DNA of 64,000 nt, taken from contig NZ_LT799838.1 in assembly GCF_900168255.1 (NCBI RefSeq), positions 62,001 to 126,000 of the forward strand, in the 5' to 3' direction. Under the pieces are notes generated by a model. That model worked only from the letters and a program-made list of their open reading frames with translations, was not told where the DNA came from and ran no database searches. Positions 31,757 to 60,083 of the stretch are shown here, piece by piece; within the stretch, counting starts at the first letter, position 1, and every line of letters starts with the position of its first letter. The translations under genes and the position numbers were made by a program. The stretch is from Psychrobacter sp. DAB_AL43B. GTDB lineage: Bacteria > Pseudomonadota > Gammaproteobacteria > Pseudomonadales > Moraxellaceae.

Positions 31757-31841
31757 GCGATTGTGGTGGAATTGGTAGACACGCCATCTTGAGGGGGTGG
31801 TGGCGCAAGCTGTGGGGGTTCAAGTCCCCCCAATCGCACCA
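31757..31841 (+). tRNA. tRNA-Leu (anticodon GAG)
   Basis: An 85-base cloverleaf with encoded CCA. Acceptor GCGATTG pairs with CAATCGC. The anticodon stem CCATC / GGTGG encloses the loop TTGAGGG, giving GAG. A long variable arm (class II) and the T arm GGGGGTTCAAGTCCCCC follow. Confidence 0.96.
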
Positions 31842-31962: not shown

Positions 31963-32039
<77 letters not shown>

Positions 32040-45806: not shown

Positions 45807-48002
45807 TTAGATGACCTCGTGTGTCGTTTGGGCATTTGCAGCATCAATGTTTTTGCCATTGCTAAAACCGCTGTGACGTAATAAAGCATCAATACTGGCG
45901 CTACGACCACGGAAGTTCTCAAAATTGGTCTTGGCTGGGAAGCTACCGCCAACGGACAAAATAGTCTCACGGAACGCTTTACCGGTTACTGGATTAAAAA
46001 TACCGTCTTCTTCAAACTTACTAAAAGCGTCTGCAGATAATAGCTCCGCCCATTTATAGGAATAATAGCCTGCTGCATAACCACCGGCGAAGATATGGCT
46101 AAAGCCATTGGCAAAGCGGTTATAGTCAGGCGTTTGCATAATAGCAATGTCGCTACGCACGGTATTTAAAGTTGCTAATACACCTTCGTAATCAAGTGCT
46201 GGCGTATGCGCATGAATTAATAAATCAAATAAGGCGAACTCGATTTGGCGTAACGTTTGTAATCCGCTTTGGAAGTTTTTTACTGCCAGCAGTGCATCGA
46301 GTTTGTCTGTGGGCAAGGGTTCGCCTGTTTCGACATGGCTACTGATAAGGGCGATACCTTCCGCATCCCACGCCCAGTTTTCCATAAATTGGCTGGGCAG
46401 CTCAACCGCATCCCACTCCACGCCATTGACACCAGCAACGTCGCCGACGGTCACTTGGGTCAATAGGTGATGGAGACCATGACCGAATTCATGAAACAAG
46501 GTCAGCACTTCATCATGCGTCAATAAGCTTGGCTTGCCATCGAGTGCTGGCGTGAAATTACCCACCATAAAGCACACAGGTAGCTGCTGATGGTCTTGCG
46601 CGTCATAAGTATAACGCGACTGAAAACCACTCATCCATGCGCCGCCGCGTTTACCGCTACGGGCAAATAAATCAAAGTAAAAGCCGCCAAGCAAGTTATC
46701 TTCAGCATCAAATAATTGATAAAAACGTACGTCATCATGCCAGCGTGATACAGATTGATTGCCTGTATCATCACGGCTTTGTTCTAGTGCTTTGATACCG
46801 TACAAACGCTCTACGATAGCAAATAGACCACTAATCACTTTTGGCAATGGAAAGTAAGGGCGAATCTCTTCTTGCGATAAACTAAACTCGTTTTGTTTTA
46901 CTTTTTCAGCGATATAGGCACTGTCCCATGGCTGCAAATCTTTAATACCATAATCCTGCGCATACTTTTGCAACTGCGCTAAGTCGTTTTTAGCGGTTGG
47001 AGCCGCTTGCACAGCCAAATCACGTAAGAAAGTTTCAACTTCAGCCACACTATCTGCCATTTTAGTTGATAGCGATACTTCAGCGTAATGATTAAAGCCT
47101 AATAACTTGGCTTTTTGCTCACGTAATTTCAGGATATCACTCATGAGATTGGCATTGTTTAATGACTCGCCTTTGGCATTGGTATGCTCGTCAAATTCAG
47201 AAGCACGAGTAACATAAGCGCGATATAGCGTCTCACGTAGACGGCGATCGTCAGCATGAGTCATAACCGCAAGGTATACAGGAATATTTAAGCTTGCCAC
47301 ATAATGAGGGGTTGGCAGAGCATCAATCTCAGCTTGTGTGAGCGCACCGCTGGCAAACTCACGGGCTTTATACTGTTCACCGGCATCTGCCAATAGCGCC
47401 AAACCACTGTCGGTTAAGCCCGCTAATTGCTCGTCATTAAGCGGAAGCGCATAGGCTTGGGTGGCATCTAATACATGATCAGAAAATGTCGCTGATAAAG
47501 TAGATAGCTTGCTTTGGATAGCCGCAAACTTGTCTTGCTCTGCTTTAGGTAACGCCACGCCTGATAGCTCAAAGCTTCGTAATGCAAGTTCGATGGCACG
47601 CGTACGTGCTGGCTCAAGCGCTGTAAAAAATGCTTTATCATTAATAATTGTCTGATATCGCTTAAATAGCGGCTGATGCTGTCCTACTCGTGTGCCGTAA
47701 GCAGACAGTTTAGGTAGTAGTTCATGATGGACATGGCGGATCTCATCGTTACTCATCACGCTATTGAGGTGCGATAAAATACCCCAGCTGCGATCCAATG
47801 CCAAATTAATATGGTCAAAGCTCATGATATCGACTAAGGCTTGCTTAGCGTTGAGCTCAAAAGCATTATTATCGCTCTTTGCTGTCATCTCATCTAAAAA
47901 AGTATTGGCAGCATCGATAGCGTTAACGACTTGGCTTTGTAAGGTATTTGGCGTGGCACTAGCAAAATCGACAAGGCGTAAATCTGGAGCAATGGAAGTC
48001 AT
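45807..48002 (-). CDS. prlC: Oligopeptidase A
   Basis: An M3 zinc metallopeptidase of the cytosol that degrades short peptides, including cleaved signal peptides. At 731 residues it is slightly longer than the 680 of E. coli. Zinc site LFHEFGHGLHHLL (HEXXH), the downstream Glu in GVEWDAVELPSQFMENW, and the substrate region FAGGYAAGYYSYKWAELLSADAF. Forms an operon with yheV. Its promoter region contains an 8-bp tandem repeat (48135). Confidence 0.95.
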   Translation of the reverse strand: MTSIAPDLRLVDFASATPNTLQSQVVNAIDAANTFLDEMTAKSDNNAFELNAKQALVDIMSFDHINLALDRSWGILSHLNSVMSNDEIRHVHHELLPKLSAYGTRVGQHQPLFKRYQTIINDKAFFTALEPARTRAIELALRSFELSGVALPKAEQDKFAAIQSKLSTLSATFSDHVLDATQAYALPLNDEQLAGLTDSGLALLADAGEQYKAREFASGALTQAEIDALPTPHYVASLNIPVYLAVMTHADDRRLRETLYRAYVTRASEFDEHTNAKGESLNNANLMSDILKLREQKAKLLGFNHYAEVSLSTKMADSVAEVETFLRDLAVQAAPTAKNDLAQLQKYAQDYGIKDLQPWDSAYIAEKVKQNEFSLSQEEIRPYFPLPKVISGLFAIVERLYGIKALEQSRDDTGNQSVSRWHDDVRFYQLFDAEDNLLGGFYFDLFARSGKRGGAWMSGFQSRYTYDAQDHQQLPVCFMVGNFTPALDGKPSLLTHDEVLTLFHEFGHGLHHLLTQVTVGDVAGVNGVEWDAVELPSQFMENWAWDAEGIALISSHVETGEPLPTDKLDALLAVKNFQSGLQTLRQIEFALFDLLIHAHTPALDYEGVLATLNTVRSDIAIMQTPDYNRFANGFSHIFAGGYAAGYYSYKWAELLSADAFSKFEEDGIFNPVTGKAFRETILSVGGSFPAKTNFENFRGRSASIDALLRHSGFSNGKNIDAANAQTTHEVI

Positions 48003-48134
48003 AAAGGTATCCGGTATAAATAGTTTGGAGAGAAAACAGAGTGTAAATGAGTGTCATACATCAATTATTTTATTTTGGCGCTACTATTGAGAAGCCTTAG
48101 TGTGAAGGGTGTTAGTGGTTACACGCTCATCAAA

Positions 48135-48171
48135 ATGTATCAATGTATCAATGTATCAATGTATCAATGTA
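48135..48171. repeat. 8-bp tandem repeat (ATGTATCA), about 4.6 copies
   Basis: Four exact units at 48135, 48143, 48151 and 48159 and a partial fifth. It lies 133 bases upstream of prlC and 345 upstream of the Balon gene in their shared divergent control region. Such a repeat can change copy number by slippage. Confidence 0.92.
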
Positions 48172-48515
48172 ATAGTGATAAATAAGGCTGATATTTTTGG
48201 TTGATTTTATAGAGACTATTTAAAAGATGGGTCTTACTTAGCGAAAATACAACCCAGTTATCTAGCATTATCATATTAATACTTAGGTTACGCTTATTAA
48301 AGCTGCTGTAGCTTGTTAAAGCACCACTTACAAAGCGTCATCATTTGCTTGCAAATTAACCCTATAGCTAATGAAGTTAAGTTGATAGGGTAATAGTAAC
48401 GATTGGTAATTATTACAGTTACTTATCATATATTAAAAATTTCAAACGAGTAATAGCTAACTAATACCAAAAGAAGTACTAGAAACTAATGATAATAAAA
48501 TAAGGAGCAGTATTT
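48172..48515 (+). promoter_or_regulatory. Upstream region of the Balon gene
   Basis: AT-rich, no ORF. A hairpin ACCCTAT / ATAGGGT with a 19-base loop lies at 48359-48391. A GGAG ribosome binding site stands eight bases before the ATG. Promoter boxes cannot be fixed. Balon is reported as abundant in cold and stationary phase, so control signals are expected here. Confidence 0.35.
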
Positions 48516-49628
48516 ATGAAAGCAACTCTTAAAAGCTTACGTGAGACTAAAGCAAATCCAGCAGTCAGTATTTTTGTTAAGACTCACCGTGAGCATCCTG
48601 CCAACGAAAAAGATCCTATTGCCCTAAAAAATCAATTGAAAGTTGTCGAAGAACGCTTAACTAACGAATTTGATAAGCGGACGGCGACTACTATTTTGGA
48701 AAATATTCACGCTAAAACCAAAGAACTTAATCATAACTATAATTTGGATACGTTAGCGATATTTGCCAGCACTGATGATGTTCAGATTGTCCGTATGCCT
48801 ATTGATACCACAGAACGTGTTGTCATCTCAGACAGCTTTGCTACGCGTGACTTGGTCCGTGATATGGCAAGCGCGGTTCATTATTATACCGTGGTGTTAA
48901 CCCGTGACAGTGCGCGCCTGATAGAAGCTTCTAACGATCGCGTCGTGCGTGAGTTTGATAAAGACGATAAAGCGCAAAATAATATGGAAAACATTCCATT
49001 CCCTATTGAGAATAATGGCTTGTATACGACGGGTGATGCCGGTTCTGATCGTTCAGCCAACAATGAAAGCAGTTATTTAAAAGAGTTCTTTAACCAAGTG
49101 GATAAGAGCGTTCAAGAGCTGTGGGGCGAGCATAAAATGCCGCTTGTCATTGTTGGGGATGCAAAAAATATCGGTTATTATAAAGATGCCTGCGACCGTC
49201 CAGAAAATATCATTGCTACCGTATCAAATGCGACCAATTTGGAAGCAGGTAGTGCACAGCATATCGTTGATAGTGTTCAAGAAGCAGTAGAAGGTTATCG
49301 TACGTCGCTACATCAAGCTGCCTTGGGTGAGATTGATAAAGCCCGCGGTGCAAACATGCTGCAGACTGATCTACAAGAAGTCTACCGCAGTGCTTTCCAA
49401 GGCGTAGGCGAGACGCTATATGTCCGCCGTGGTTACATGCAACCTGCCAAGATTGATGAAGCAGCGCAAACCTTAAGCATGGCTGATGATGCTACTGCAG
49501 AAGGCGTCACTGATGATGCGATTGGTGAAATTATTGAGCATGTCATTCATAATGGCGGCAAAGCAGTATTTATGCCGCAAGATATTATGGCTGAAGACCA
49601 ACCAATTGCTCTAGTAACTCGTTACTAA
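48516..49628 (+). CDS. balon: Ribosome hibernation factor Balon (bacterial aeRF1/Pelota homologue)
   Basis: The 370-residue protein matches, as I recall it, the Psychrobacter urativorans protein AOC03_06830, named Balon. That factor occupies the ribosomal A site of dormant ribosomes together with EF-Tu and is homologous to archaeal-eukaryotic release factor 1 and Pelota (baeRF family). Three parts are visible. An N-terminal alpha/beta domain (1 to about 115). A central domain from about 120, opening with the strand YYTVVLTRDSARLIEAS and containing YLKEFFNQVDKSVQELW and MPLVIVGDAKNIGYYKDAC. A C-terminal domain from about 265 with VGETLYVRRGYMQ and GEIIEHVIHNGGKAVFM. The GGQ peptide-release motif and the NIKS codon-recognition motif of eRF1 are both absent, as expected for a hibernation factor. 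Monocistronic with its own terminator; divergent from prlC. Name is from memory; the fold family is the firmer call. Confidence 0.85.
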   Translation: MKATLKSLRETKANPAVSIFVKTHREHPANEKDPIALKNQLKVVEERLTNEFDKRTATTILENIHAKTKELNHNYNLDTLAIFASTDDVQIVRMPIDTTERVVISDSFATRDLVRDMASAVHYYTVVLTRDSARLIEASNDRVVREFDKDDKAQNNMENIPFPIENNGLYTTGDAGSDRSANNESSYLKEFFNQVDKSVQELWGEHKMPLVIVGDAKNIGYYKDACDRPENIIATVSNATNLEAGSAQHIVDSVQEAVEGYRTSLHQAALGEIDKARGANMLQTDLQEVYRSAFQGVGETLYVRRGYMQPAKIDEAAQTLSMADDATAEGVTDDAIGEIIEHVIHNGGKAVFMPQDIMAEDQPIALVTRY

Positions 49629-49682: not shown

Positions 49683-49719
49683 TGAGAGCATTGGTTCGAT
49701 ACGAATCAATGCTCTTTTT
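49683..49719 (+). terminator. Intrinsic terminator of the Balon gene
   Basis: Stem GAGCATTGgTTCG / CGAAtCAATGCTC with a short ATA-type loop, then T-run. Ends the monocistronic transcript. Confidence 0.88.
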
Positions 49720-49877: not shown

Positions 49878-50651
49878 ATGACTAATAAAATTATGACTAA
49901 TACCACCTCTTTTGTTTTAACCAGCTACAACATTCATAAAGGCATGTCGCCGATGAATCGCCAAGTCAAAATACAGGGTATCGCCCAAGCACTCGATATT
50001 ATTGGCTCAGACATACTTTGTCTACAAGAAGTACAGGGTCAGAATCTCAAACGCAATATGCAATACAACGAGTATCCTGACCAATCACAGCATGAATGGT
50101 TTGGTGAGTATCTGCAGCTGCAAAATAGCTACGGCAAAAACTCAGAGTATGAAAACGGTCATCATGGTAATGCGGTGTTGAGTCGTTTCCCGTTAGATCC
50201 CAAGCATAACGTTAATATTACGGTCAATAAACTTGAGCAGCGTGGTGTCTTGCACTGTGAAGTGCAGCCGATAGGCTGGGAGACGCCAGTCGTCGTACTG
50301 TGTGCGCATTTAAACTTGTTTGAGCGCGATCGCATTAAGCAATACGAAGCTATTGCTAATTACGTCCGTAATGAGATTGCACCTGACCAGCCATTGATTT
50401 TGGCAGGCGACTTTAATGACTGGAAAAAAATGTCTTGCGATAAACTCGCCGCTAATTTAGGTATGACGGAAGCTTTTAAACACTGTCATGGTAAGTTGCT
50501 CCCAACGTTTCCCGCAAAGCTACCTGTGCTTAGCTTAGACCGTATCTACGTACGTAATCTGAGAATAAAAGACGCTTGGGTACATACGGGCAAGCCGTGG
50601 TCAACGTTATCGGATCATCTGCCTTTGAGTGCAGAGTTGGCATTGCCCTAG
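49878..50651 (+). CDS. Endonuclease/exonuclease/phosphatase family hydrolase
   Basis: The 257-residue protein of the EEP superfamily (DNase I / AP endonuclease / phosphodiesterase fold). Motifs: TSYNIHKG, metal-binding Glu in ILCLQEVQGQ, HHGNAVLSRFPL, LILAGDFNDW (Asp/Asn) and the final SDHLPLSAEL (Asp-His). No signal peptide, so cytosolic. The substrate could be nucleic acid or a phospholipid headgroup; sequence does not decide. Second in-frame ATG at 49893 (the MTNKIMTNTT repeat makes the start ambiguous). Confidence 0.85.
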   Translation: MTNKIMTNTTSFVLTSYNIHKGMSPMNRQVKIQGIAQALDIIGSDILCLQEVQGQNLKRNMQYNEYPDQSQHEWFGEYLQLQNSYGKNSEYENGHHGNAVLSRFPLDPKHNVNITVNKLEQRGVLHCEVQPIGWETPVVVLCAHLNLFERDRIKQYEAIANYVRNEIAPDQPLILAGDFNDWKKMSCDKLAANLGMTEAFKHCHGKLLPTFPAKLPVLSLDRIYVRNLRIKDAWVHTGKPWSTLSDHLPLSAELALP

Positions 50652-59658: not shown

Positions 59659-59881
59659 TCAACACCGCCAGTAGCTGCGGGGTAAGTCTATGTCATACGG
59701 ACAAATATAATCGTAAGACAAACGCACTATCCGAACGAAATCTAGTGAGTCATCTCTAAAGGATTGATGGGCGCAGCTTATTATTGATAGTCAGGTAGCA
59801 CTATAAAAACTTGCTAGATATTGACGATAATAACAAGGCATTTCTGCGCGCCCTTTGTACTTGTATAACATAAGCTTAAGA

Positions 59882-59980
59882 CTTCCCTGCGTCGGTACTA
59901 ACCGCATCAGGTTCGGCGGGTGATATCTCAGCGAATGTATAAAGGCTTTTAAGCCATAATACACCGCACCCCGAGTCTGT
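59882..59980 (-). promoter_or_regulatory. TPP riboswitch (THI element) of thiC
   Basis: On the minus strand the conserved elements come in order: CTCGGGGTGC, CTGAGATA, ACCC, GAACCTGATGCGGTTAGTACC, GCAGGGAAGT. These are the P2/J3-2 and P4/P5 parts of the THI box. The variable P3a stem (AAGCCTTTTA / TAAAAGCCTTT-like) is between. The element lies upstream of thiC in the correct orientation and is expected to repress it when thiamine pyrophosphate binds. Confidence 0.95.
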
Positions 59981-60083
59981 CAGTGTTGTAAATCACCTTT
60001 ATACTAGCAAACTTCGCTGACAAGTCCTAGTCATTTACCTGTTTGTTGTGGCTTCAACTATTTTAACAATCACGGTCTTAATA

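Follow-up and report, generated by a model that had tools for sequence, protein, structure and literature searches.

Background

Balon is a protein of Psychrobacter urativorans that plugs ribosomes during cold shock and in stationary phase, and AOC03_06830 is its published locus tag (PMC10901736). It is present on practically all stationary-phase ribosomes of that organism and has RaiA as its partner on vacant ribosomes (PMC10901736). After ice treatment, ~44% of the ribosomes carrying Balon also carried EF-Tu, which in stationary phase was present only in traces (PMC10901736). Given these last figures, the contribution of EF-Tu may be limited. The published protein carries neither a GGQ nor a NIKS motif, and it leaves peptidyl-tRNA intact with the nascent chain in place (PMC10901736). 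P. arcticus without Balon grows slightly faster and is slower in its early recovery after three months, with no visible change in rRNA stability (PMC10901736). Stress-gene neighbours and, for homologues in Bacillus and mycobacteria, stress induction have also been reported (PMC10901736), and baeRF proteins had been connected with HPF and a shutdown of translation in a 2019 analysis (PMC6514570).

The discovery of Balon is recent and important, but many Psychrobacter copies of the gene are annotated, and the one described here adds no new type of system. What our analysis adds is solely a conserved promoter-like element in the upstream DNA, a predicted determinant of the timing of Balon production. 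The results part of the Balon report, in its available text, names no promoter or regulator for Psychrobacter balon (PMC10901736), and the element is undescribed in the portions searched of the literature on Balon, baeRF proteins and Psychrobacter ribosome hibernation.

Methods

The window is the whole stretch of 64,000 nucleotides of Psychrobacter sp. DAB_AL43B DNA that was analyzed. Conserved islands in the intergenic region were located with 18-mer tiles matched to 75 related loci with at most four mismatches, and three mononucleotide shuffles were made per tile. Direct alignment of the upstream DNA was too gapped, and a motif-anchored comparison was therefore used. The genus-wide pattern search covered 60 Psychrobacter genomes drawn from a larger group and allowed up to three mismatches.

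Results and discussion

Identity and fold of the encoded protein

By its sequence, the window protein is a full-length Balon ortholog. In a sequence search of solved structures it matched the Balon chain of the P. urativorans ribosome structures over residues 1-370 (8rd8_B, E 6.3e-207), a chain whose depositors' molecule name, 'Methyl-accepting chemotaxis protein', is a misnomer. Residues 5-370 matched positions 1-361 of the 361-position NCBIfam profile NF052287 (AOC03_06830_fam_RHF) with 522.9 bits (cut-off 330; E 5.3e-157), and Pfam PF18845 (baeRF_family3) was matched with 108 bits against a gathering cut-off of 31.5 (E 8.9e-31). These matches are far beyond chance and bear out the proposed relationship to baeRF/eRF1 families. 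A protein search returned 253 relatives at E <= 1e-3, and several of the 120 matches listed are named AOC03_06830 family ribosome hibernation factor. All 75 genome loci encoding a relative are from Psychrobacter, the nearest being that of P. immobilis A-11 (94%).

Relative to the P. urativorans protein (8rd8/8rdv/8rdw), the window protein matches over its full length and shares the fold and the HP motif, with 82-83% identity; it has 370 rather than 369 residues and otherwise differs by ordinary substitutions. The first-pass annotation had named this protein, together with its locus tag, as the counterpart of the window protein, and both were right: the match runs end to end at 82% identity, NF052287 is matched above its cut-off, the predicted model matches Balon, and the tag is the published one (PMC10901736). 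The mycobacterial Balon proteins Msmeg1130 and Rv2629 (8v9j, 8v9l, 8v9k) are far more distant, with 12-17% identity, and form the separate family NF052288, against which the window protein scored only 21.3 bits (cut-off 480).

In the predicted model the window protein has three aeRF1-like domains, which agrees with the three-domain aeRF1/Pelota-like layout first read from the sequence. The model matches Balon, mycobacterial Balon, aRF1/eRF1 and Pelota, and aligns over nearly its full length to Balon, aRF1 and eRF1, its confidence being moderate (best of five mean pLDDT 73.8; others 50.5-68.6) and its rmsd to the Balon chains 6.4-6.5. Single-domain structures of eRF1-N, eRF1-M and Pelota-C were placed on residues 1-119, 117-258 and 264-370, respectively. 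Any counterparts of the lasso loop, the bL27 trap and the EF-Tu-contacting beta-hairpin would fall within the end-to-end sequence alignment with solved Balon, the model being weak in loops, including the HP loop at residues 26-34 where pLDDT is mostly below 50.

A motif search of the 370 residues found neither GGQ nor NIKS, as the first reading had also held. One relative, L044, has a GGQ at residue 347, which is not a catalytic loop since that position lies in the C domain, where the window protein has GGK. An HP motif starts within residues 21-33 in 75 of 76 proteins (the 75 loci plus the window), and P28 never varies in a 48-row alignment, in which H27 is conserved in at least 90% of rows. 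HP is missing only from L060, whose reading frame is disrupted by a frame change; L069, which is also broken, retains it. Frame changes or an in-frame stop break the Balon copies of L060 (Psychrobacter sp. WY6), L069 (JCM 18901), G266 and G274; these may be sequencing errors or recent losses.

Proposed activity and competing functions

Taken together, these data make the window protein a likely translation inhibitor in stressed cells, a full-length Balon ortholog that would act by occupying the A site of the ribosome, in many cases together with RaiA and EF-Tu(GDP); we put the probability of this reading at roughly 0.95. By homology, the protein would need no mRNA reading to enter the A site, and both vacant and elongating ribosomes would be open to it. 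The HP motif of its N domain would touch A1492/A1913 in the decoding centre, the middle domain would lie beside A2602 and trap bL27, the lasso and the bL27 trap would contact the catalytic centre, and the C domain would meet EF-Tu held in its GDP form. Through these contacts vacant and elongating ribosomes alike would be halted without peptide release, and the nascent chain would stay in place.

Two other activities were weighed. The protein shares its overall fold family with Pelota, and in the 2019 analysis baeRF proteins were proposed to relieve stalled ribosomes, either non-catalytically like Dom34 or sometimes by release (PMC6514570), so that the window protein might chiefly be a Pelota/Dom34-like rescue factor that frees stalled ribosomes rather than a hibernation factor. 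We consider this very improbable, as the 82%-identical P. urativorans protein sits on practically all stationary-phase ribosomes, keeps the nascent chain and meets EF-Tu(GDP) on a surface unlike Pelota's; published Balon also lacks loop A (PMC10901736). The overall match of the window protein to Pelota/Dom34 is weaker, and in the structure comparison of the model the closest solved fold was not a Pelota/Dom34 chain. An eRF1-type peptide-releasing factor that retains peptidyl-tRNA hydrolysis would fit the eRF1-like fold, yet the absence of both GGQ and NIKS, in which the window protein departs from aRF1/eRF1 (identity 10-14%), and the intact peptidyl-tRNA left by its published relative (PMC10901736) reduce its likelihood to next to nothing.

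The reading as a Balon-type hibernation factor implies the same physiological role as that of HPF/RaiA and RMF, to whose families the window protein is unrelated. The first-pass annotation had presented it as a class of translation silencer differing from HPF, RMF or RaiA; that class has already been published (PMC10901736), and the protein is hence not a new kind of silencer. The balon finding itself is real, correctly named and already known.

The balon gene and its neighbours

The gene is an intact ORF with exactly the extent first assigned to it (Table 1). It is preceded by a good ribosome-binding site in a conserved region, whose tiles starting at 48483-48495 match 57-64 of the 75 loci, against 4-8 when shuffled. 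Upstream lies a divergent M3-family oligopeptidase gene resembling prlC; this arrangement recurs in 74 of the 75 loci, the remaining locus ending 411 bp upstream. Downstream, an endonuclease/exonuclease/phosphatase gene follows on the same strand, and such a gene is found on the + strand near balon in 67 of the 75 loci (2.5 kb flank). The likely terminator folds at -20.2 kcal/mol, and its stem and T tail agree with the earlier call of a strong terminator. Terminator-like hairpins follow balon in 74 of the 75 related loci by a loose test that had no shuffle control; a consensus scan found one site against 1.2 expected in shuffles, which by itself is no evidence. With a divergently oriented neighbour on its upstream side and, downstream, a T-tailed hairpin ahead of the next + strand gene, balon very likely forms its own, monocistronic transcript, as first proposed.

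Table 1. Features of the balon locus (positions in the window)
Feature	Position	Strand	Remarks
prlC-like gene (M3-family oligopeptidase)	45807..48002	-	divergent from balon
8-bp tandem repeat AATGTATC	48134..48171	.	4.8 perfect copies; this genome only
Island A block TTGYATT...CCCATCTTTTA	48216..48254	-	conserved
Promoter-like element	48328..48391	+	conserved; ~125-190 bp upstream of balon
Element part TTACAAA	48328..48334	+	
Element part TTGCAAA	48349..48355	+	21 bp beyond TTACAAA
Element part CTATAG	48362..48367	+	near -35
Element part extended -10 TG-A-TAGGGT	48383..48391	+	
Ribosome-binding-site region (island C)	48480..48515	+	conserved; AATAAGGAGCAG at 48499
balon (AOC03_06830 family ribosome hibernation factor)	48516..49628	+	ATG start, 370 aa plus stop
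N-terminal (decoding-centre) domain	48516..48872	+	~residues 1-119; HP motif at 27-28
Middle (peptidyl-transferase-centre) domain	48864..49289	+	~residues 117-258; no GGQ
C-terminal (EF-Tu-facing) domain	49305..49625	+	~residues 264-370
Likely intrinsic terminator of balon	49684..49716	+	15-pair stem, loop of 3, T tail
Endonuclease/exonuclease/phosphatase gene	49878..50651	+	

A conserved promoter-like element upstream of balon

The 513-bp intergenic region contains three conserved islands, A (~48207-48263), B (48318-48377) and C, the ribosome-binding-site region, as well as a patch beside the prlC start (48003-48026). Island B stood out, with tiles starting at 48327-48351 matching 62-69 of the 75 loci and at most 2 when shuffled. 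On the + strand it reads TTACAAA-N5-ATCATTTGCTTGCAAA, then CTAYAG and, slightly further, TGnTAnnnT. The core of this element was present in 69 of 76 regions (<= 4 substitutions) and the TG-N-TA offset was the same in 69/69; among 53 distinct segments, the -10 box never differed in its first T, its A or its final T. The core lay at varying distances from the start codon, 147 to 528 bp (70/76 regions, up to 4 edits allowed).

The genus-wide search found the element in 52 of 60 genomes, with 53 matches against 0 for the reversed control: one match in each of 51 genomes and two in a single genome. All except one of these matches (52/53) lie upstream of balon on the same strand, at 171-552 bp as measured to the profile start. 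The element was missing or strongly diverged in 7 of the 76 regions, and in 8 of the 60 genus genomes at the three-mismatch limit. Outside the genus, a pattern search of 14 Moraxellaceae loci from three genera gave no convincing copy: the 18-bp core was matched at 4 substitutions in three loci and at 5 in one, and the longer pattern at 8-9 in three, which we judged, without a control, to be chance. A general promoter scan did not report the element, since that scan demands a -35.

Within its own genome the element has no recognizable siblings. The 18-bp core (<= 3 mismatches) gave 11 matches, including that of balon, against 5 for the reversed control, and the next best match (2 mismatches) lies inside a coding ORF. 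TTRCAAA-N14-TTRCAAA (<= 1 mismatch) gave 20 matches against 7, of which only that at balon is exact. BLAST of the 111-bp region returned four extra short matches (E 0.05 to 3.9), the best of them inside a long ORF that looks SMC-like by eye. Membership in a wider regulon was thus rejected, the other weak sites being indistinguishable from noise. The general stress sigma factor RpoS was likewise dismissed as the regulator: a profile search of the genome found two sigma genes, at 282.9 and 145.8 bits, both under the RpoS cut-off of 378.7.

Interpretation of the element

The element is rigidly spaced inside, lies at no fixed distance from the gene and ends in an extended -10; these traits suggest that it is a promoter joined to an upstream activator site, and thus a dedicated, activator-dependent Balon promoter. 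That it is functional is suggested by its conservation against unconserved DNA around it, to which shared descent also adds. Transcription would then begin near 48398 and yield a leader of ~118 nt. The -35 position is taken by CTAYAG, which is poor as a sigma-70 element, and for want of a consensus -35 the paired TTRCAAA sites would probably be read by a putative activator. We offer only tentatively, and with the odds against it, the fuller reading of a private, genome-unique Psychrobacter balon promoter, built as a rigid 64-bp array (a TTRCAAA pair 21 bp apart and an extended -10 with no consensus -35), at which a dedicated activator would couple cold or starvation directly to Balon synthesis.

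The element stands between two divergent genes, and its distance to the prlC start is also variable (163-479 bp where computed; L060 and L069 are excluded because their computed starts are unreliable); it might accordingly be a second, minus-strand promoter or binding site that serves the prlC-like gene and not balon. This is unlikely in our estimation, because the invariant, fixed-offset TGnTAnnnT reads on the + strand, and because a separate minus-strand block within island A already resembles a heat-shock promoter for the prlC-like gene. On the minus strand island A reads TTGYATT, ~13-14 bp and then CCCATCTTTTA in many loci (rows from 65 of the 75, with poor-looking matches in at least L050, L053 and L072), and it resembles a sigma-32 promoter. 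In E. coli, prlC is a heat-shock gene. If the + strand element is indeed the balon promoter, it would be of modest importance and would provide an exact 64-bp target for testing.

The 8-bp repeat to which the first-pass annotation drew attention is real, but a regulatory role for it found no support. Its exact two-unit pattern occurs at its own locus and in 0 of 106 other loci, overlapping tiles match 0-4 of the 75 loci, no more than shuffles do, and it lies outside all three islands. We rejected it as an operator, and it is probably non-functional.

Copy number, partners and distribution

The genome (3.31 Mb, one contig) has a single balon by profile searches, baeRF family 3 and the AOC03_06830 family each giving one match. 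It also has one short HPF/RaiA gene (C1:310048, 126 aa), ~198 kb from balon and standing behind an ORF that reads by eye like rpoN. Profile searches of the same genome detected no RMF and no acVLRF1 (PF18859), and no Rfam family was found at the balon gene.

Among 299 genomes sampled from the family, 137 had an AOC03_06830 match at E <= 0.001, of which 133 were above the cut-off; by a hand count of rows, 105 of the 137 are from the same genus and 32 from other genera. None of the 20 listed from the 162 genomes without a match belongs to the same genus. Two genomes of another genus of the family gave weak Balon-like matches that contain two in-frame TAG codons (G110:C1:878260-878541 and G143:C88:224940-225221) and are possibly decayed Balon copies; region L137, which holds the weak remnant in G110, gave no tblastn match.

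Elsewhere in the window, a TPP riboswitch was detected at 59867-59983 on the minus strand (62.9 bits; gathering score 54.3), and tRNA-Leu(gag) and tRNA-Met(cat) lie close to each other at 31757-31841 and 31963-32039.
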